A program made the position numbers and the translations under genes. A DNA stretch of 34,924 nt, taken from Cyanobacteria bacterium K_Offshore_surface_m2_239. GTDB lineage: Bacteria > Cyanobacteriota > Cyanobacteriia > PCC-6307 > Cyanobiaceae. The notes beneath the pieces are model-generated. The model saw nothing but the letters and a program-made list of their open reading frames with translations, was not told the DNA's origin and did not search any database. Positions 4,525 through 17,884 of the stretch are shown piece by piece; position 1 is the stretch's first letter, and the number at the start of each line of letters is the position of its first letter. The stretch covers positions 1-34,924 of the forward strand of contig VGQX01000016.1 in the NCBI GenBank assembly GCA_016882305.1, read 5' to 3'.

Positions 4525-5832
4525 ATGGTCGTGACCACCACGCCCCTTCGCTCAACGCTTGTGCAGCCGAGATTGGAGGTGACCGGTGGGACGACCTTGG
4601 AAGGCGAGATCCGTGTCAGTGGGGCCAAGAACTCCGCCCTGGTCCTGATGGCCGCGTGTCTGCTCAGCAAAGATTCGCTTCTTCTTCACAATGTACCCCG
4701 CTTGACGGACATCGCCTCCATGGGCGAGATCCTCGCCGCCCTCGGGGTCCGTGTCACCCGTTCCGGGGAAACGGTTGAGCTTTTGGCTGATCACGTGTCT
4801 CGGGCGGCTCCCCCCTATGAATTGGTCAACAGCCTGCGGGCCAGCTTTTTCTGCATCGGCCCTCTCCTGGCGCGCATGGGCATGGCTCAGGTTCCCCTCC
4901 CCGGCGGCTGCCAGATCGGCACCCGCCCTGTGGTGGAGCACGTCAAAGGCCTGAAAGCTCTTGGCGCCCGGGTGACCATCGAGCACGGGGTCGTGACCGC
5001 CGTGGTGCCGGGCGCCGGGCAACGGCTCAAGGGGGGGCACATTCTTTTGGATTGCCCCAGCGTCGGCGCCACCGAGACCCTGATGATGGCCGCCGCCCTG
5101 GCGGATGGCGAAACCATCATTGAAAACGCCGCTCTGGAACCCGAGGTGGTCGACCTGGCTCGCCTCCTGCGGGCCATGGGCGCCCGCATTCGCGGCGCTG
5201 GCACGCCGACCATCGTCATCGATGGCGTGCCGTCACTCCATGGGGCTGACTACCACGTCATCCCCGACCGCATCGAGGCGGGCACGTTCTTGATCGCCGG
5301 GGCCATCACCCGCTCCTCTCTGCTGGTCACCCCCGTGATCACCGACCACCTGGGCGCCGTGTTGGCCAAGTTGGAGGACTGTGGCTGCCGTCTCACCCCG
5401 GAGGGCGAGGGAATCCGCATCTCCGCCAAGGAGATCAACGCCATCGACCTGCGCACCCAGCCGTTCCCGGGCTTTCCCACGGACCTCCAGGCCCCGTTCA
5501 TGAGCCTGTTGGCCACCGCCACCGGCACCAGCATGGTGGTGGAGAACATTTTTGAAAACCGCCTGCAGCACGTCGCGGAACTTCAGCGAATGGGCGCGTC
5601 GATCCGCATGCAGGGCAACACGGCCTGTGTGGAGGGCGTGACGCGCCTCAGCGGTGCCCCTGTTCAGGGAACCGATCTGCGAGCTTCCGCGGCCATGGTG
5701 CTCGCGGGCCTGGCCGCAGAGGGCATCACGACGGTGCGGGGGCTGGAATATCTCGATCGCGGCTACTCTCAGCTTGAGCACAAGCTGAATGCCGTGGGCG
5801 CCCGCATCCAACGTGTCAGCGGCGACGCATGA
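4525..5832 (+). CDS. murA: UDP-N-acetylglucosamine 1-carboxyvinyltransferase
   Basis: First committed step of peptidoglycan synthesis: transfers enolpyruvate from PEP to UDP-GlcNAc in the cytoplasm. This is the fosfomycin target. The 435-residue protein shows the SGAKN segment with the conserved K35-N36, the catalytic C129 in LPGGCQIGTRP, and later GFPTDLQAPFM and the two-domain inside-out barrel pattern. The frame is open back to a TTG at 4483, but the ATG at 4525 has an AGGAT eight bases upstream and gives the usual family length. C129 is a cysteine, so the enzyme should be fosfomycin-sensitive by family knowledge. It sits between two tRNA-Leu genes. Confidence 0.96.
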   Translation: MVVTTTPLRSTLVQPRLEVTGGTTLEGEIRVSGAKNSALVLMAACLLSKDSLLLHNVPRLTDIASMGEILAALGVRVTRSGETVELLADHVSRAAPPYELVNSLRASFFCIGPLLARMGMAQVPLPGGCQIGTRPVVEHVKGLKALGARVTIEHGVVTAVVPGAGQRLKGGHILLDCPSVGATETLMMAAALADGETIIENAALEPEVVDLARLLRAMGARIRGAGTPTIVIDGVPSLHGADYHVIPDRIEAGTFLIAGAITRSSLLVTPVITDHLGAVLAKLEDCGCRLTPEGEGIRISAKEINAIDLRTQPFPGFPTDLQAPFMSLLATATGTSMVVENIFENRLQHVAELQRMGASIRMQGNTACVEGVTRLSGAPVQGTDLRASAAMVLAGLAAEGITTVRGLEYLDRGYSQLEHKLNAVGARIQRVSGDA

Positions 5833-5872
5833 TCGGGAGGGGGGTGCCGACCACGCGATAGATTCGGGTCAT

Positions 5873-5954
5873 GGGAGCGTGCCGGAATTGGTAGACGGAC
5901 TCGACTCAAAATCGAGCGCCTTCGGGCATGTGGGTTCGAGTCCCACCGCTCCCA
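5873..5954 (+). tRNA. tRNA-Leu (anticodon CAA)
   Basis: Class II tRNA of 82 bases with acceptor GGGAGCG / CGCTCCC and discriminator A. The anticodon stem CTCGA/TCGAG has loop CTCAAAA (anticodon CAA, reads UUG). The variable arm is GCCTTCGGGC-like, and the T-arm GTGGG-TTCGAGT-CCCAC is perfect. CCA is not encoded. It lies 40 bases after murA and 41 bases before argD. Confidence 0.95.
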
Positions 5955-5995
5955 TCCCCGCCCCTCGGCCGGGGGAGGTCACTCCCTCCGCCGTG

Positions 5996-7174
5996 ATGGA
6001 CACCTACGCCCGCTTCCCTCTCACTTTGGTGCGCGGGAAGGACGTCTGGGTTTGGGACGACCGAGGGAATCGCTATTTGGATGCCGTGGCCGGCATTGCG
6101 GTCTGCACCCTCGGTCACAGTTCGCCGGCCCTGCGCAGGGCCCTGTGCCGGCAGTTGGCCACGCTGCAACATGTCTCCAATCTCTACCGCATCCCCGAGC
6201 AGGAAGAGCTGGCCGCGGCCATCGCCCAGCGCAGCTGCGCGGATCGCGTCTTCTTCTGCAATTCCGGCGCTGAGGCCAATGAAGCCGCCATCAAGCTGGC
6301 CCGCAAACACGGCCACGAGCGGCGCGGCATTGCCCGACCGCTGATTCTCACCGCCGAAGCCAGCTTCCACGGGCGCACCCTGGCGGCGGTGACCGCCACC
6401 GGACAGCCGCGCTATCACCAGGGTTTTGAGCCGATGGTGGAGGGGTTTCGCTACTTCCCCTACAACGACGGACCCGCCTTCGACGCCCTCCTCGACAGCT
6501 GCGAAGCCGAAGGGCCGGCCGTGGCGGCCGTGCTTCTTGAGCCCCTTCAGGGAGAGGGGGGCGTGCACCCTGGCGACCCCGCCTTCTTCCGTCTGGTGCG
6601 CGAACGCTGCGACGAGCGCGGCATTCTCCTCATCTTGGATGAAGTCCAGATCGGTGTTGGACGCAGCGGCCGGTGGTGGGGATATGAACACCTGGGCGTG
6701 GAGCCGGATGCCTTCACCCTGGCCAAGGGCTTGGGGGGAGGCATTCCCATCGGCGCGCTGGCGGTGAAGGCCAGCTGCGACATTCTCCGCCCCGGGGAGC
6801 ATGCCAGCACTTTTGGTGGCAATCCCCTCGCCTGCCGCGCCGGTCTCACCGTCTTGCGGGAGATCGAACGCCGTCAGCTCCTCTCCCGGGTCACCCACGT
6901 CGGGCAGCGGCTGAGGGAGCGGCTGGAGGAGCTGGTGCGCCGTCATCCCGACCGGCTCGCGGGGGTGAGGGGCTGGGGCCTGCTGCTGGGTCTGGCGCTC
7001 CAGCCGGATGCCTTGACCGCTCCCGAGGTGGTGAAGGCGGCGATGGCGGAAGGATTGCTGCTGGTGCCGGCTGGAGCGAGTGTTGTGCGCTTTGTTCCCC
7101 CCCTGGTGATCCAGCCGCGCCATGGGCGGGAATTGGTGAAGCGCCTGGAACGCGCCCTCGCCCGCCTGCGTTGA
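5996..7174 (+). CDS. argD: Acetylornithine aminotransferase (class III, PLP)
   Basis: Transaminates N-acetylglutamate semialdehyde to N-acetylornithine in arginine synthesis. The 392-residue protein has the class III features: NSGAEANEAAIKLAR, SFHGRTLAAVTATGQ, LDEVQIGVGRSG (PLP-binding Asp) and the Schiff-base lysine in LAKGLGGGIPIGAL near residue 243, then STFGGNPLACRA. The longer open frame from 5789 runs through murA and the tRNA, so the start must be the GTG at 5993 or the ATG at 5996. A GGAGG at 5974-5978 lies rather far upstream. Broader specificity (succinyl-DAP or 4-aminobutyrate) cannot be excluded. Confidence 0.93.
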   Translation: MDTYARFPLTLVRGKDVWVWDDRGNRYLDAVAGIAVCTLGHSSPALRRALCRQLATLQHVSNLYRIPEQEELAAAIAQRSCADRVFFCNSGAEANEAAIKLARKHGHERRGIARPLILTAEASFHGRTLAAVTATGQPRYHQGFEPMVEGFRYFPYNDGPAFDALLDSCEAEGPAVAAVLLEPLQGEGGVHPGDPAFFRLVRERCDERGILLILDEVQIGVGRSGRWWGYEHLGVEPDAFTLAKGLGGGIPIGALAVKASCDILRPGEHASTFGGNPLACRAGLTVLREIERRQLLSRVTHVGQRLRERLEELVRRHPDRLAGVRGWGLLLGLALQPDALTAPEVVKAAMAEGLLLVPAGASVVRFVPPLVIQPRHGRELVKRLERALARLR

Positions 7175-9669: not shown

Positions 9670-11064
9670 TCATCCCTCCTGCCACCACCCCCGGAGCTTG
9701 CCCGGGTTGAGCAGGCCAGCGGGGTCCAGCTGGCGCTTGCAGGCCACCTGCGCCGCGTCAATCACCCCCAGACCTCCGTCCTCCACCGTGATCACGTGGG
9801 GATCAAAGAGCACGGCGCCAGCGTCCTCGCACTGGGCCATCAGCTCCTGAAGGGCATCGATCCCCTGATCCCGCAACACGGGGAGGCCTGCCAGACGACA
9901 GGCCCCCCCCTGGCGCACGCCTTCAAGATGCCAGTGCAGGTTGTCGCCCCAACGGGCCCGCAGGCGATCCAAAAAGGGACCCTCCGGTTGGGGGAGCAGC
10001 ATCTGGAGATACGTCCAGTCCGGATGCCGGGCCCGCCAATGAAGGGTGGTGTGATTCCAGGTCAGCTCCCGCAGGGGCACCCCTTTGGAGGTCGCTTCCG
10101 GCTCCCGCCAGACCACGCGCCCCTCCCGGGAGGCCAGCCAGGGAGCGGCCACCGGCACGGCATCGGGCGCCAGCAGCACCAGCAGTCGCGATTCTCCCGG
10201 CTCGGGAGCGGGGCAGCCTGTCGGCCAGGGCATGGCCGCCGCCAGAGGGGCCTCCAGCAGGCACACCTCCTGCAGCAAAAGGGCGGTGCTGGGCAGCTCC
10301 CTGGCGGCCTCCAAGGCCCGCTCCGCCTCGCTGAAGCTCGCCACCAGCTGCCACCAGGCCACCGCCTCGGCCGTGGCCAGGCGCAGGGCGGTGAGGATGC
10401 CGTTGGTGCCATAGGCATGGTTGAGAGGGTCGCAGGCCTCGCCGTCCAGGCGCAGCACCCGCGGCTCCGGCTCCATGGTCACCACCTCCAGTCCCAGCAG
10501 GTGGCCCGGATCCCGCAGGAACCCCCAGCGCAAGGACCCCACGCCTCCCGATCCCCCCGCGATGAAGCCCCCCACCGTGGCTGTGCGCCAGGTGCTCGGC
10601 GCCAGCCGCAGGGACCGTCCACTGGGCGCCAGCTTCCGATCGAGATCCGCCAGCAGGCAACCGGCTTCCACGTCCACCACCCCTGTGGCCGCCTCCACGC
10701 TCCGCAAGGCTGACAGTCCTCCCATCTCCACCACCACGCCGCCCGCCAGGGGAACGCATTGGCCGTAGTTGCCCGTGCCCGCCCCCCGCACGGTCAGCGG
10801 CACCCCGTGACGCGCGCAAGCCCCCGCCACGATGGCCACCTCCTCGCGATCGCGAGGGGCGACGGCCAGCTGGGCTCGGCAATGCGCCAGAAGCTGGCGG
10901 AGCACAGGGGAAAAGCCATGGAAATCCGTGGATCGTTTCTCCAGCTCCCCGGGGGCGCTCATCCGCGGGAGCGTCGGGGCCAGCCGGGTGAGCTCCGCCT
11001 CAAGGGCGCGGATCCGCCCGTCCGCGGGCCGGGGCGGCAGGGGGGGGAGGGCCAGGGAGGGCAT
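9670..11064 (-). CDS. FAD-binding oxidase (GlcD/PCMH-type flavoprotein)
   Basis: A 464-residue flavoenzyme of the FAD-linked oxidase C-terminal / PCMH family (glycolate or lactate dehydrogenase relatives). The N-terminal FAD domain is clear: PRDREEVAIVAGACARHGVP, VRGAGTGNYGQCVPLAGGVV, APSTWRTATVGGFIAGGSGG and YGTNGILTALRLA. The C-terminus ends with the usual LDPAGLLNPGKL. The substrate is unknown. The start is taken at the ATG 11064, which keeps the helix before LEKRSTDFHG but overlaps the upstream amidohydrolase by 65 bases. The ATG at 10962 would avoid the overlap. It is the last gene of a three-gene minus-strand operon. Confidence 0.85.
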   Translation of the reverse strand: MPSLALPPLPPRPADGRIRALEAELTRLAPTLPRMSAPGELEKRSTDFHGFSPVLRQLLAHCRAQLAVAPRDREEVAIVAGACARHGVPLTVRGAGTGNYGQCVPLAGGVVVEMGGLSALRSVEAATGVVDVEAGCLLADLDRKLAPSGRSLRLAPSTWRTATVGGFIAGGSGGVGSLRWGFLRDPGHLLGLEVVTMEPEPRVLRLDGEACDPLNHAYGTNGILTALRLATAEAVAWWQLVASFSEAERALEAARELPSTALLLQEVCLLEAPLAAAMPWPTGCPAPEPGESRLLVLLAPDAVPVAAPWLASREGRVVWREPEATSKGVPLRELTWNHTTLHWRARHPDWTYLQMLLPQPEGPFLDRLRARWGDNLHWHLEGVRQGGACRLAGLPVLRDQGIDALQELMAQCEDAGAVLFDPHVITVEDGGLGVIDAAQVACKRQLDPAGLLNPGKLRGWWQEG

Positions 11065-12394
11065 CAGGGCGCGGGGGGGGCGGGGCGAGCTCCAATCCTG
11101 GATCCACAGCGGGATCGCTGGCCGACAACCGCCGCAGCAAGGAGGAGGGTGCCTCGCTGTCGGGCGGCGGCAGCCAGGAGCCATCGCGCATCACGCGCCG
11201 TTGCGGGTTGCGCGCCAGGACCTCAGTCCAGGAGCGGGCCGCCAACACCACCAGATCCGCGGGCCCGCCGATCCGCAGCACCCCATCCCAGGACAGCCCG
11301 AGGAGCCGGGCGGGGGCCGTCGTCAGGGGGGCCAGGCCCGCCCGCCGCCAGGGCAGCGCGTGGCTGGCCAGCGTGGCCAGGCGGATCAGCTCGATGGGAT
11401 CGAAGTCCCCGCCGGGAAACCAGGCGTCTTGCACGTTGTCGCCGCCGATCGCCACCGTCACCCCCGCCGTCTGCAGCTGCTGGATCGGCGCCAGCGGACG
11501 CTTGCTCGGCGTCCGCTCGGGATGCCGATCGAGCAACCACAGATTCGTTGCGGGCAGGGCCACCACGCCCACATCCGCCTCGGCCAGCCCCTCTGCCAGG
11601 CGGCGCAGGGCCCGGTTGCCCAGGAGGCCCATGCTGCTGGCATGGCTCGCTGTCACCGGCACGCTGGGGCGCCGGTCGCGCAGCAGGGCGTTCAGCAGCA
11701 GCAGGCCGCGCGGCGGGGGCTGGGCGCTTTCATCCACATGGAGGTCGATGCCGCAGCCCTGCCGCTCCGCCAGGTCCAGCAAGGCGCGGAGGGCGTCGCC
11801 GTCGCGGCCGTCCGGTCGATAGGGAGGACCCAGAACTCCACCCAGGAGTCCGCCCGCGTCCGCGACCTGGCGCGCCTGCCGCTCCCCCTCCGCCGTCAAC
11901 CAGTGCTGAAGGGGGACGAGCGCCACCAATTCCAGGTCCACCCGCCCCGCCCAGCGCTGGCGCAGCTGGCCCAACACCTCCCAGCAGGTGGTCGACCAGG
12001 GGCCCAGGCTGTCGACGTGACTGCGGATGGCCCGCAGGCCGTAGCGCCAGGCCTGCTCCAGAGCCCGCTCCGCCCGCTCCTGGACCCCTTCCGCAGTGCG
12101 TTGCTCCGCCTCCCGCCGATTCGCCGCCATGGCCTCCTCCATGGAGCCGGACGCATTGCGGTGGGCGGAGGCCGTGAAGGCTTTGTCGAGATGGGCATGG
12201 GCCTCCACCAGGGGGGTGAGGGCCAGGGGGATGTCCCGCGCCGGCTCCGGCCCCGCATGGGGCACCACCGCGCTCACGCGCCCCTCCCGGTGCGTGATGC
12301 GCACCCGCACCAGACCGTCCGCGTCCGGCAGCCCGAGAGGCAGGCCGGGATCGAGAAGGGAGCGGGGGATGGCCAAGGGAGGAAGGGTGCTCAC
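11000..12394 (-). CDS. Cytosine-deaminase-like amidohydrolase
   Basis: A 464-residue metal-dependent amidohydrolase close in pattern to E. coli CodA and related N-heterocycle deaminases. Metal and catalytic residues align: HAHLDK (CodA HIHLD), RSHVDS, DLHVDE (CodA DVHCDE, His plus catalytic Glu), TASHASS (CodA ASHTT) and IGGDNVQDAWFP (CodA FGHDDVFDPWYP, metal Asp). It therefore looks catalytically intact, but the substrate (cytosine, isoguanine, creatinine or a triazine-like compound) is not determinable. The GTG start overlaps the upstream DUF4359 stop (GTGA). The last 30 or so residues are Pro/Arg/Ala-rich and overlap the FAD oxidase start. Confidence 0.86.
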   Translation of the reverse strand: MSTLPPLAIPRSLLDPGLPLGLPDADGLVRVRITHREGRVSAVVPHAGPEPARDIPLALTPLVEAHAHLDKAFTASAHRNASGSMEEAMAANRREAEQRTAEGVQERAERALEQAWRYGLRAIRSHVDSLGPWSTTCWEVLGQLRQRWAGRVDLELVALVPLQHWLTAEGERQARQVADAGGLLGGVLGPPYRPDGRDGDALRALLDLAERQGCGIDLHVDESAQPPPRGLLLLNALLRDRRPSVPVTASHASSMGLLGNRALRRLAEGLAEADVGVVALPATNLWLLDRHPERTPSKRPLAPIQQLQTAGVTVAIGGDNVQDAWFPGGDFDPIELIRLATLASHALPWRRAGLAPLTTAPARLLGLSWDGVLRIGGPADLVVLAARSWTEVLARNPQRRVMRDGSWLPPPDSEAPSSLLRRLSASDPAVDPGLELAPPPPRPDALPGPPPPAAPARGRADPRP

Positions 12395-13012: not shown

Positions 13013-14140
13013 TCAGCCGTTCCCAAGTCCAGCCAAGGGACCGGCCAGCAAGGCCTCGAGCAGAGCACCTCCCCCCTGTCGCACCGGGTCGACACACGGC
13101 AATTCCGTCTCCTCCTGGATCCGCGCCACGGCGGCGCGGGCGTCGTCGTCATCAAGATGGGCCGTGTTGAGGGCGATGGCTCCCACTTTCGGTGGGGGAA
13201 CCCCGGGGCCATGGGTCATGGGCGCTGCGGCGGCCGTCCCGGGACGCCCCAGGGCGGCCAGCGCCTCCGCCACGGCGATCAGGTCCCTCAGGGGGGGGAT
13301 CGGGATGTGGGGAGCGCTGCGAATGCTGTCCTGCCCCGCGCGATGCACCAGGAGCAGGGCGGTCGGTTGAGAGCCGCGAAGCAAGGGCAGCGTGGCCGTC
13401 GATCCGGGATGGCACAACGATCCCTGGCCTTCCACCAGCACCAGGGTTCCCGGAGTGGCCGCTGCGGCGGCCGTCACCACCGCCTGCTCGACGCCACCAG
13501 CGGCGTAATCCACTCGAATGGCATCGAGCGGCACCCCGCTTCCACTGATCAGGATCCCCGCCTGGCCGGTCGCCACGAAGCGGGCGTCCAGGCCGCGTTG
13601 GAGCGCAGCCTCCTGAAGCTCCAGACACGCGCTCATCTTCCCCACCGACATGTCAGTGCCGATGGCCAACAGTCGGTGGCCCGGCAACTGGGCGGCCTGG
13701 GCCGAGCCGACGGTCAACCCGCGCGGTTCCTGCCGCAGGTCCCAGATCCAGGCCCCCGGTTTCAGCCGGGCGGCCAGTTCCGGATCCCTCCCCAACGCTG
13801 TGTGCAGTCCGCTGGCCAGGGACAAGCCGGCGTCCAGGGCCATCAGCAGGTCATCCCGCATCTCCACCGGCAACGCCCCACCGGCGGGAGCCAACCCCAC
13901 CACAGCCACGGCCCGCTCCGGAGCCTCCAGCAGGGGCAGGGCCTCCCGCAGGCTGGCCACCACGGCCGCAGTCCGCGCCAGTCCGGTGATCGCCGCCAGA
14001 TCGGCACCCGCATGGGCCGGATCGACCACCACCGGAATCGGGCCCTTGCGGTAGCGCAGCAGAGCCAATCCCGTTTTGCCGCGCAGATTGTCGAGGCCAT
14101 GGTGTTGCAACAACACCACCGGGGCATCAGCGGGGAGCAT
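13013..14140 (-). CDS. DUF1611 protein, DgcN-like
   Basis: A 375-residue DUF1611-family protein with an N-terminal Rossmann-like part (PVVLLQHHGLDNLRGKTGLALLRY, VVVDPAHAG) and a C-terminal P-loop domain with a Walker-A-like GTDMSVGKMSA, then VATGQAGILISGSGVPLDAIRVDYAAG and LVEGQGSLCHPG. From memory of the literature, DgcN in marine bacteria acetylates D-glutamate, and its neighbour DgcA racemises N-acetyl-D-Glu to N-acetyl-L-Glu. The same kind of gene pair is found here, so that role is possible, but it is inferred from context. The start chosen is the ATG at 14140, overlapping the stop of the enolase-superfamily gene by 14 bases. Confidence 0.82.
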   Translation of the reverse strand: MLPADAPVVLLQHHGLDNLRGKTGLALLRYRKGPIPVVVDPAHAGADLAAITGLARTAAVVASLREALPLLEAPERAVAVVGLAPAGGALPVEMRDDLLMALDAGLSLASGLHTALGRDPELAARLKPGAWIWDLRQEPRGLTVGSAQAAQLPGHRLLAIGTDMSVGKMSACLELQEAALQRGLDARFVATGQAGILISGSGVPLDAIRVDYAAGGVEQAVVTAAAAATPGTLVLVEGQGSLCHPGSTATLPLLRGSQPTALLLVHRAGQDSIRSAPHIPIPPLRDLIAVAEALAALGRPGTAAAAPMTHGPGVPPPKVGAIALNTAHLDDDDARAAVARIQEETELPCVDPVRQGGGALLEALLAGPLAGLGNG

Positions 14141-15275
14141 CGGAGGCGGTCTCACCGGAGGTCTCCTGGCCGGCGCCCAGCAGGCGCGCCAGGGGGCCAT
14201 CCTGCCGCACCCTCACCCCCAGCCCCGGGGCCGCTCCCGCGCGAAGCCCATCCCCCTCCAGGCGCGGACCGACAAAGGGGTCGTCGAGCAGATTGAGGTG
14301 GCTGTCCAGGTCCGGCCAGCGCGTCAACGGCAACAGCTGGCTCGCGGCGCCATTGAGCAGGGCGCTGTCGGAGTAGCAGCCCACCATCACCTCCAGGCCC
14401 AGCCGCTGGGCCACCCGGGCCATCAGATGGGCTTCGCTCAGCCCTCCCGCTTTGAGCAGCTTGATGTTCACCCCATCCACGTGGGGGGCGAGCCGCAACA
14501 GATCGGCCAGACTCCAGCAGCTCTCATCGGCCACCAATGGGATGGGGCAGTCCAGGTCGAGGGCGGCGAAGCCGGCGGTGTCCTCGTCTGGATCGCGCCG
14601 AGGGGGCAAGGGTTGTTCCAGAAGAACGACGCCCGCCGCCGCCAACCCGTCCACCATCCGGCGCGCCTCCTCCAGCGTCCAGCCGCCATTGGCATCCACC
14701 TGCAGCTCCGCCGCTTGGCCGCAGCTCCGCCAGTGCTCCCGCAAGGCGTCGCTGACGGCCGCCACCAGGGCCTTGTCGTGCTCCAGACCCTCTGGACTGC
14801 CCAGCTTGAGCTTCACCCGGCTGGCGGGACACACCGCCCACCAGCGCTCCAGGCGTTCCAACACCCGAGGCACGGTGCCCAGGCCAAGGGTGACACTCGT
14901 GGCCACGGCACTGGAGGCGTCCAGCCCCCACAGCTCCCCCACGGGCCGCCCCAGGCGCTTCCCCCACCAATCGAGCAGGGCCAGATCGGCGGCGCAACGG
15001 GCGGGGGGGGAGAGGGGCGCCAGCATCGGTTCGAGCGCCTGACGCGGTTCCGGCTCTCGGCCCTCCAGCCGCGGGATCAGGTCGGTCAACTCCACGGCGA
15101 TGGTCTCGGTGTCGATCCGCCGGTGACCGGTGTCGAAGCCGCCGCTCTCGCCCAGCCCCACCAGCCCCTCGTGCTCCACCGTGAAGAGGAGGCGCTCCAC
15201 AACGGCGGTGGTGCCGCGGCTGATGGTGAGCGGAACGGCCTTGGTGAGGGCGAAGCGGTGCAGGCGGCAGCGCAT
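14127..15275 (-). CDS. Enolase-superfamily epimerase/racemase (dipeptide epimerase or DgcA-like)
   Basis: A 382-residue member of the muconate-lactonising subgroup of the enolase superfamily, which includes L-Ala-D/L-Glu epimerases. Catalytic pieces are present in order: the KxK dyad in SRVKLKLG, metal ligands Asp in LQVDANGGW, Glu in LLEQPLPP and Asp in PLVADES, and the opposite-face Lys in [10 protein letters not shown], with a C-terminal DPFVGP. Substrate choice between Ala-Glu dipeptides and N-acetyl-glutamate cannot be read from the sequence. The ATG at 15275 gives the family length. The divergent miaB starts about 70 bases away. The following DUF1611 gene overlaps its end. Confidence 0.86.
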
Positions 15276-16857: not shown

Positions 16858-16885
16858 GGTTCGCGAGGATTTGACCACCGCCCAG

Positions 16886-17884
16886 ATGTCTGCGCTCCTC
16901 CTCAGCCACCAGGCGCTGCTGGTGATGCCGGACGATGGACCTCAGGCCATCGTGGATCTGATCGATCAGGCGCGGAAGGAATTGCTGCTGAAGCAATTCA
17001 AGCTCCAGTCCGAAGTGGTGCTGTTGGCCCTCCGCCGCGCCCAAGAGCGCGGGGTGGACGTGCGCGTGATGCTCAATCCGCACACCTCTGGCGGCGATCG
17101 TTGGAATGATGAGACCTTCCGTCGCCTGCAGTCCTGGGGCATGGCCGCGGCCTGGACGAGCGAGGCCTTCCCGGTCACCCATGAGAAATCGATGCTCATC
17201 GATGGGGAAGCGGCACTGATTTCCACCTTCAATCTGTCGGACAAATACTTTCACGAAACCCGCGACTACGGTGTGCTGAGCCGCAACGCGGCCGTTGTTG
17301 CCCAGGTGCGCGCGGGGTTTGAGGCGGATTGGCTGCGCACCTTCTTCCAACCCGATCTCAACGTTGGCCTGGTCTGGAGCAGCGTCCACAGCCGCGGGCA
17401 GATGGCTCGCCTGATCGATGCCGCTGAGCGCACCCTCTGGATCCAGCATCCGAAGTTTGTTGATGCGGTGATCCTGGAGCGCATCGTCTGCGCCTGTGAG
17501 CGCGGCGTGAAGGTGCGGGTGCTCTGCGGTGGCAAGCACGGCGTCAGTGATTGGGATATCTACGACACCTTCTCTTCCCTGCGCGTGATGCAACGTTTTG
17601 GCGTGAAGGTTCGGCGCCAGAAACATTTGAAACTGCATGCCAAGCTGATCCTCATTGATGGCATTCATGCTCAGACGGGTTCCATGAACATCGATCGCAG
17701 CGCTTTCGATCTGCGCCGTGAGCTGGGAATTGAAAGCGATGCGCCCGCAGTGGTGGAGCGGCTGAAGGCCACCTTTGCGGCGGATTGGGCGAAGGCAGAG
17801 AAATACAACGCTCCCGATCCCCTGGATCCCTCCTTGCACGACGCCGGTGAGCTGCCTCCCGATCCCCATTTCGTGCATGACTGA
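16886..17884 (+). CDS. Phospholipase-D-like protein with two HKD motifs
   Basis: A 332-residue PLD-superfamily protein. Two HxKxxxxDG motifs are visible: HEKSMLIDGEAALISTFNLS and HAKLILIDGIHAQTGSMNID, each followed by the supporting Asn/Ser. No signal peptide or membrane span is seen, unlike most cardiolipin synthases, so the reaction (phosphatidyl transfer, nuclease or other phosphodiesterase) is undetermined. The ATG at 16886 is favoured over the TTG at 16871. It follows miaB by 28 bases, and its stop overlaps the chromate transporter start by 8 bases, so it is part of one transcript. Confidence 0.85.
   Translation: MSALLLSHQALLVMPDDGPQAIVDLIDQARKELLLKQFKLQSEVVLLALRRAQERGVDVRVMLNPHTSGGDRWNDETFRRLQSWGMAAAWTSEAFPVTHEKSMLIDGEAALISTFNLSDKYFHETRDYGVLSRNAAVVAQVRAGFEADWLRTFFQPDLNVGLVWSSVHSRGQMARLIDAAERTLWIQHPKFVDAVILERIVCACERGVKVRVLCGGKHGVSDWDIYDTFSSLRVMQRFGVKVRRQKHLKLHAKLILIDGIHAQTGSMNIDRSAFDLRRELGIESDAPAVVERLKATFAADWAKAEKYNAPDPLDPSLHDAGELPPDPHFVHD

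Follow-up and report, generated by a model that had tools for sequence, protein, structure and literature searches.

A divergent cyanobacterial pair of DUF1611 and racemase genes as a candidate DgcN-DgcA-like system for D-glutamate

Results

Two overlapping genes for a DUF1611 protein and a racemase

The stretch of DNA analyzed here (the window) is contig VGQX01000016.1 of Cyanobacteria bacterium K_Offshore_surface_m2_239, a member of the Cyanobiaceae, and has a length of 34,924 nucleotides. Two overlapping genes on its minus strand are the subject of this work: a racemase/epimerase gene of the enolase superfamily (product P0002) and, downstream of it, a DUF1611 gene (product P0001). An earlier note on this DNA had paired them as counterparts of DgcN and DgcA. 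Examination of the open reading frames (ORFs) confirmed both genes at the positions claimed there, as well as their overlap of 14 bases. P0001 contains the C-terminal and N-terminal DUF1611 domains of Pfam (E 7.7e-66 and 6e-21, respectively), and P0002 contains MR_MLE_C (E 3e-29) and MR_MLE_N (E 5e-7). Taking into account both the overlap and the conservation of the pair, the two genes are probably co-transcribed.

The two genes are retained and lost together

We analyzed the distribution of both genes in a sample of 194 genomes of the phylum. At raw thresholds, PF07755 was matched in 62 genomes and the racemase in 60. Upon dropping six genomes with weak DUF1611 matches (E 5e-5 to 7e-4) and three with weak racemase matches (E 6e-16 to 5e-11), DUF1611 is present in 56 genomes and the racemase in 57, both occurring in the same 56 and the racemase alone in G041. 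When the weak matches are restored, both genes are found in 56 genomes, DUF1611 alone in six and the racemase alone in four. The association goes far beyond chance expectation (Fisher p 2e-48, a value that ignores kinship between genomes). The matched parts are not more than 2.4 kb apart in 51 of the 56 genomes that have both. The other five retain both genes although these are not linked: the distance is 2.36 Mb in G011, and in G056, G181, G044 and G033 the genes are on separate contigs.

Within the family of the window, 200 genomes were examined. Both genes were found in 130, neither in 65, DUF1611 only in three and the racemase only in two (G356, and a remnant in G332). The 130 genomes include a few partial matches, and also G274, where both genes are remnants. 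Some family members have a second DUF1611 gene, which in G171 is of another subgroup, and hence not every DUF1611 match represents the gene of the pair. A frame of 24,637 amino acids with a DUF1611 match, also in G171, was an artefact of masked bases. The remnants lie between miaB and a DUF4359 gene. In G274 (L196, 7787-8347) the sequence matching residues 5-127 of the racemase is followed directly by one matching residues 288-365 of DUF1611, a scar best explained by one internal deletion spanning both genes; in G332 (L197, 7289-7711) the start of the racemase alone remains.

In the surroundings of the pair, examined at 34 loci of other cyanobacterial families and of the Melainabacteria-like family f36, a third real gene recurred in five loci at most, and the larger gene clusters there consisted of frames antisense to the pair. 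A further inspection covered DUF1611 loci of named genomes, namely the best 80 of at least 556 confirmed ones. An enolase-type racemase lies in the stretch beside DUF1611 in at least 49 of these 80, several stretches being short; this corresponds to at least 23 of the 33 loci with oxygenic-cyanobacterial titles and at least 26 of the 47 others, L119 from an uncultured cyanobacterium being counted among the latter. The pair is a divergent and widespread lineage and no peculiarity of the window genome. Comparable records name such genes merely DUF1611 protein and dipeptide epimerase.

Catalytic residues and predicted fold

The AlphaFold2 model of P0001 (predicted local distance difference test score 93.7) has the DgcN fold. 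Its fold matches were 2obn from Anabaena variabilis (Z 47.6), 2g0t from Thermotoga (Z 36.7) and 7xrj (Z 36.5); this last entry, titled N-acetyltransferase DgcN, superimposes on the model with a root-mean-square deviation of 3.1 over 329 residues. For the C-terminal part, the fold neighbours are P-loop proteins (Z 12 to 14), among them dethiobiotin synthetase (Z 12.8), cobyrinic acid a,c-diamide synthase and MinD (Z 13.7). None of the 50 fold matches listed is a GNAT acetyltransferase, which excludes nothing. Out of 70 residues invariant across nine rows of the DgcN clade, P0001 keeps 49, including G, T, D, G and K of the P-loop and the EGQGS motif (Table 1); cyanobacterial DUF1611 rows keep 45-54 of them.

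The racemase, for its part, keeps the catalytic lysines and metal ligands of DgcA as well as the arginine of the 20s loop, which presumably binds the glutamate side chain. An equivalent of this arginine, R20, is present in 5/5 DgcA-clade rows, in YcjG, in 3/3 other rows of the family and in 63 of 66 other cyanobacterial rows (two have tyrosine and one a gap), although the alignment of the ISRGT loop is possibly off by one residue with respect to R24 of YkfB. The DxD motif, which we take to bind the free ammonium group of a dipeptide, was considered as a means of telling dipeptide epimerases from DgcA and was discarded, as it is also present in 5/5 DgcA-clade rows.

Table 1. Position of the gene pair and of conserved residues in the window.
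Feature	Positions	Strand	Basis or remark
Racemase/epimerase gene, enolase superfamily (P0002), first of the pair	14127..15275	-	382 aa; ATG at 15275, stop at 14127
DUF1611 (DgcN-like) gene (P0001), second of the pair	13013..14140	-	375 aa; ATG at 14140, stop at 13013
Overlap of both genes, 14 bases	14127..14140	-	ORF coordinates
P0002 R20, ISRGT motif of the 20s loop	15216..15218	-	Alignment; common to DgcA and YcjG
P0002 K155-x-K157, catalytic lysine motif	14805..14813	-	Alignment; role presumed from YkfB literature
P0002 D194, metal ligand position	14694..14696	-	Alignment; presumed role
P0002 E220, metal ligand position	14616..14618	-	Alignment; presumed role
P0002 D250, metal ligand position	14526..14528	-	Alignment; presumed role
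P0002 K272, second catalytic lysine position	14460..14462	-	Alignment; presumed role
P0002 D322-L-D324, DxD motif	14304..14312	-	Alignment; in 5/5 DgcA-clade rows too
P0001 P-loop GTDMSVGK (residues 161-168)	13637..13660	-	Sequence and alignment
P0001 EGQGS motif (residues 237-241)	13418..13432	-	Sequence and alignment

Phylogeny of the racemases

Smaller and larger trees were obtained; the larger ones leave out near-duplicates, all but one or two rows of family f7, the oxygenic-cyanobacterial rows of the 80-locus set and a few others, and the racemase tree also the long row Epi1_Haladapt. The cyanobacterial racemases form one clade in the smaller tree (support 100/100) and in the larger one (100/98, with L175, L179 and L191 inside), with L192 as its sister (100/99). 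Proteins annotated as DgcA form, together with YcjG, a separate clade (100/99 and 100/100 in the two trees), in which E. coli YcjG is nested beside proteins from Pantoea and Vibrio pelagius that are DgcA by annotation only. In approximately unbiased (AU) tests, neither the grouping of the cyanobacterial and Melainabacteria-type racemases with DgcA/YcjG (p 0.68) nor that with other dipeptide epimerases (p 0.085) was rejected; one of the tested trees exceeded the free tree in likelihood, which shows that the free search had missed the optimum. The earlier note had counted on this phylogeny to decide between DgcA and the dipeptide epimerases. With YcjG nested in the DgcA-annotated clade and both placements allowed by the AU tests, it cannot separate the two functions.

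Pairs from outside the cyanobacteria, in Planctomycetota (L179 and L191) and in a metagenome-assembled genome of Natronohydrobacter (Rhodobacterales; L192), group with the cyanobacterial clade in the trees of both proteins. This would fit a joint transfer of both genes, with the caution that binning of metagenome-assembled genomes calls for.

Discussion

Comparison with DgcN-DgcA

The DgcN-DgcA pathway has been described in marine Proteobacteria and haloarchaea, reportedly including Pseudoalteromonas sp. CF6-2, with which the window pair is compared here. In both, a DUF1611 gene adjoins a racemase gene of the MR/MLE type, and the 7xrj fold, the P-loop and EGQGS motifs, the catalytic residues of the racemase and the ISRGT loop are shared. 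They differ in the N-terminal sequence of the DUF1611 protein and in gene order, the racemase gene being first in the window whereas dgcN precedes dgcA in CF6-2. According to one study, DgcN is a D-glutamate N-acetyltransferase (EC 2.3.1.312) and DgcA an N-acetyl-D-glutamate racemase (EC 5.1.1.25) (PMC11747546). Two others state that, from transcript levels, DgcN-DgcA is very likely the main D-glutamate route in Shewanella psychrophila WP2 (PMC10845958), and treat the spread of dgcN (PMC12363236).

On balance, we favour the view that the window genes are a divergent pair for N-acylation and racemization of D-glutamate, with a mode of action like that of DgcN-DgcA. In its favour are the common domains and fold, the retention of both genes even where they are unlinked, their joint loss, the catalytic residues, and the fact that DgcN and DgcA are the NCBIfam models with the best scores. 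We propose the following for substrates, acyl donor, direction of the reactions and fate of the product. The DUF1611 protein would N-acylate, most likely N-acetylate, D-glutamate or a close relative, coming from wall turnover or from the environment. The racemase would then invert the N-acyl product at its alpha carbon through 1,1-proton transfer, with two lysines and a metal-bound enolate, and its product would be N-acetyl-L-glutamate, which could feed the arginine pathway or be deacetylated. The genome that contains the window also has the glutamate racemase MurI (190 bits, cut-off 147) and ArgJ (459 bits); the supply of D-glutamate to the wall therefore does not require the pair, arginine synthesis has no obvious requirement for it either, and recovery of D-glutamate is the role that fits best.

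A number of observations weigh against this interpretation. The best NCBIfam model for P0001 is that of DgcN (NF041892), with 218.1 bits against an equivalog cut-off of 480 that DgcN of CF6-2 passes (493.4 bits); likewise, P0002 scores best with the DgcA model (NF042940), with 152.3 bits against a cut-off of 400 that DgcA of CF6-2 passes (412 bits). Judged by these curated cut-offs, the pair is not a member of the DgcN and DgcA equivalog families. In the trees, the cyanobacterial DUF1611 proteins also form a clade apart from DgcN, and the racemases have a clade of their own whose deep placement with either reference group is statistically allowed. The arginine of the 20s loop is present in four of seven Melainabacteria-type paired racemases and replaced by tyrosine in the other three, and the window racemase retains DxD, as true DgcA does. 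No LysR regulator is encoded beside the pair, which is flanked by miaB and the DUF4359 gene, unlike in CF6-2, where dgcR adjoins the dgc genes; dgcR is, in any case, not general, since the record of the Pantoea dgc cluster lists no LysR regulator. In 21 of the 47 loci from other lineages (among the best 80), some with short stretches, no enolase-type racemase was found in the stretch; these include 8/8 loci of Gemmatimonadota. The presence of ArgJ leaves arginine synthesis with no obvious need for the pair. Finally, the open-access matches listed for DgcN/DgcA, DUF1611, cyanobacterial dipeptide epimerases and Synechococcus D-glutamate include no report of a cyanobacterial DUF1611-racemase pair or of its biochemistry. 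The pairing put forward in the earlier note is supported in part: the domains, the match to the 7xrj fold, the nearly complete co-occurrence and the catalytic residues speak for it, whereas the proteins stay below the equivalog cut-offs and form separate clades.

Other partners of DUF1611

A second DUF1611 subgroup adjoins a pyridoxal phosphate (PLP)-type racemase in four loci: L034, L041 and L043 (genomes G171, G101 and G066) and L060 (Vibrio lentus plasmid p1, 3548-5886). This racemase is related to the ornithine racemase Orr, whose model it matches with 376 bits against a cut-off of 480. DUF1611 proteins thus partner racemases of two unrelated superfamilies. In these loci, some of them second pairs in cyanobacteria, DUF1611 adjoins a racemase as it does in the window, but the racemase superfamily differs, and the DUF1611 subgroup that comprises the PLP-paired proteins and those of Haladaptatus, Natrononativus and Thermotoga keeps 34-45 of the 70 DgcN-invariant residues. 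On a plasmid of Haladaptatus pallidirubidus (L061, 872-5751), genes annotated as D-aminoacylase, dipeptide epimerase, DUF1611 and dipeptide epimerase follow one another, a hint at N-acyl-D-amino acid chemistry around DUF1611.

Alternative activities

The main rival, which we regard as unlikely although deserving consideration, would make the racemase an epimerase for L-Ala-D/L-Glu in the recycling of murein peptides and the DUF1611 protein its auxiliary, acting upstream or downstream of the racemase on freed D-glutamate or on the peptide itself. The window racemase shares with these epimerases the enolase-superfamily fold, the KxK motif, the D-E-D metal ligands, the second lysine and DxD. Its best solved relatives are 3iji, 3jva and 1jpd, the first of which bears the name muconate cycloisomerase and is, we assume, a Bacteroides dipeptide epimerase. 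The position of YcjG within the rows annotated as DgcA indicates, moreover, that the two activities are close. The scores speak against an epimerase: the models of YcjG (NF011708, 97.6 of 343 bits) and of the Thermotoga epimerase (NF041118, 72.3 of 500 bits) are matched by P0002 far under their cut-offs and less well than that of DgcA, although DgcA of CF6-2 also stays under the YcjG cut-off (311 of 343 bits). The epimerases differ from the window racemase, in addition, in that the latter is partnered by DUF1611 and belongs to a separate clade, and an epimerase function leaves the joint retention and loss of the two genes unexplained. A member of the LD-carboxypeptidase family, as murein recycling would have it, is present in the window genome and in 175 of the 194 phylum genomes; being nearly universal, it cannot follow the presence and absence of the pair, and its co-occurrence was discarded as a test. 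Epimerase genes in cyanobacteria are mentioned in a plant study (PMC3605383).

Somewhat less likely again is the same two-step logic with another substrate, such as D-aspartate, D-glutamine or D-asparagine, or with an acyl group other than acetyl. The subgroup that adjoins a PLP racemase suggests that substrates may vary from one DUF1611 subgroup to another, but the arginine of the 20s loop, common to DgcA and YcjG, fits a glutamate side chain if its role is the one we assume.

Use of ATP rather than acetyl-CoA by the P-loop domain, in a ligase-like N-acylation or N-carboxylation, appears improbable: it would agree with the conservation of the P-loop, whose G, D, G and K are present in 79/79 cyanobacterial rows and whose T is present in 78, and with the fold neighbours cobyrinic acid a,c-diamide synthase, MinD and dethiobiotin synthetase, of which the first and the last are ATP users, but all nine rows of the DgcN clade have these P-loop residues as well, the title of entry 7xrj is N-acetyltransferase DgcN, and a common fold proves no function.

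If the favoured DgcN-DgcA-like pair makes N-acetyl-L-glutamate from D-glutamate, many cyanobacteria (56 of the 194 phylum genomes, about 130 of the 200 family genomes) would have an unrecognised route from wall D-glutamate towards the metabolism of arginine, and the DgcN-DgcA pathway would extend well past marine Proteobacteria and haloarchaea. More speculatively, and with considerable doubt, DUF1611 proteins may be general N-acylating partners of amino acid racemases, of the enolase type in some lineages and of the PLP type in others, and the cyanobacterial enolase-type pair may be an old side entry from wall D-glutamate to N-acetyl-L-glutamate, the gating metabolite of arginine and cyanophycin synthesis.

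Genomic neighbourhood of the pair

The earlier note had also pointed to argD near the pair. The gene is real (ORF 5789-7174; TIGR00707, 474 bits, above the cut-off) and its end lies 5.8 kb before the pair on the opposite strand, the interval containing folC, a small ORF with no Pfam match, a pentapeptide gene, a flavin adenine dinucleotide (FAD) oxidase gene, an amidohydrolase gene, the DUF4359 gene and tRNA-His. Its proximity provides no functional evidence. The block argD-folC-FAD oxidase-amidohydrolase-miaB-ddl-ftsZ is kept in 6/6 fetched relatives that lack the pair (G135, G137, G110, G133, G161 and G103), in which no match to the pair was found between amidohydrolase and miaB and the DUF4359 gene is present there in two. 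As the block does not change between genomes that have the pair and those that lack it, it is uninformative on the function of the pair.

Two further features of the window were recorded. Between miaB and ddl, on the plus strand (16871-17884), lies a gene whose phospholipase-D-like product weakly matches DrmC of DISARM (83 bits, cut-off 133); no match to it was found at that place in three relatives that bear the pair (L033, L035 and L036). On the minus strand (9670-12394), the gene for the FAD-binding oxidase, which has a weak GlcD-like match, adjoins that for the amidohydrolase, which is cytosine-deaminase-like. A tie between these two genes and the pair was ruled out, as they stand side by side in 12/12 other genomes of the family that were examined, with the pair present or absent.
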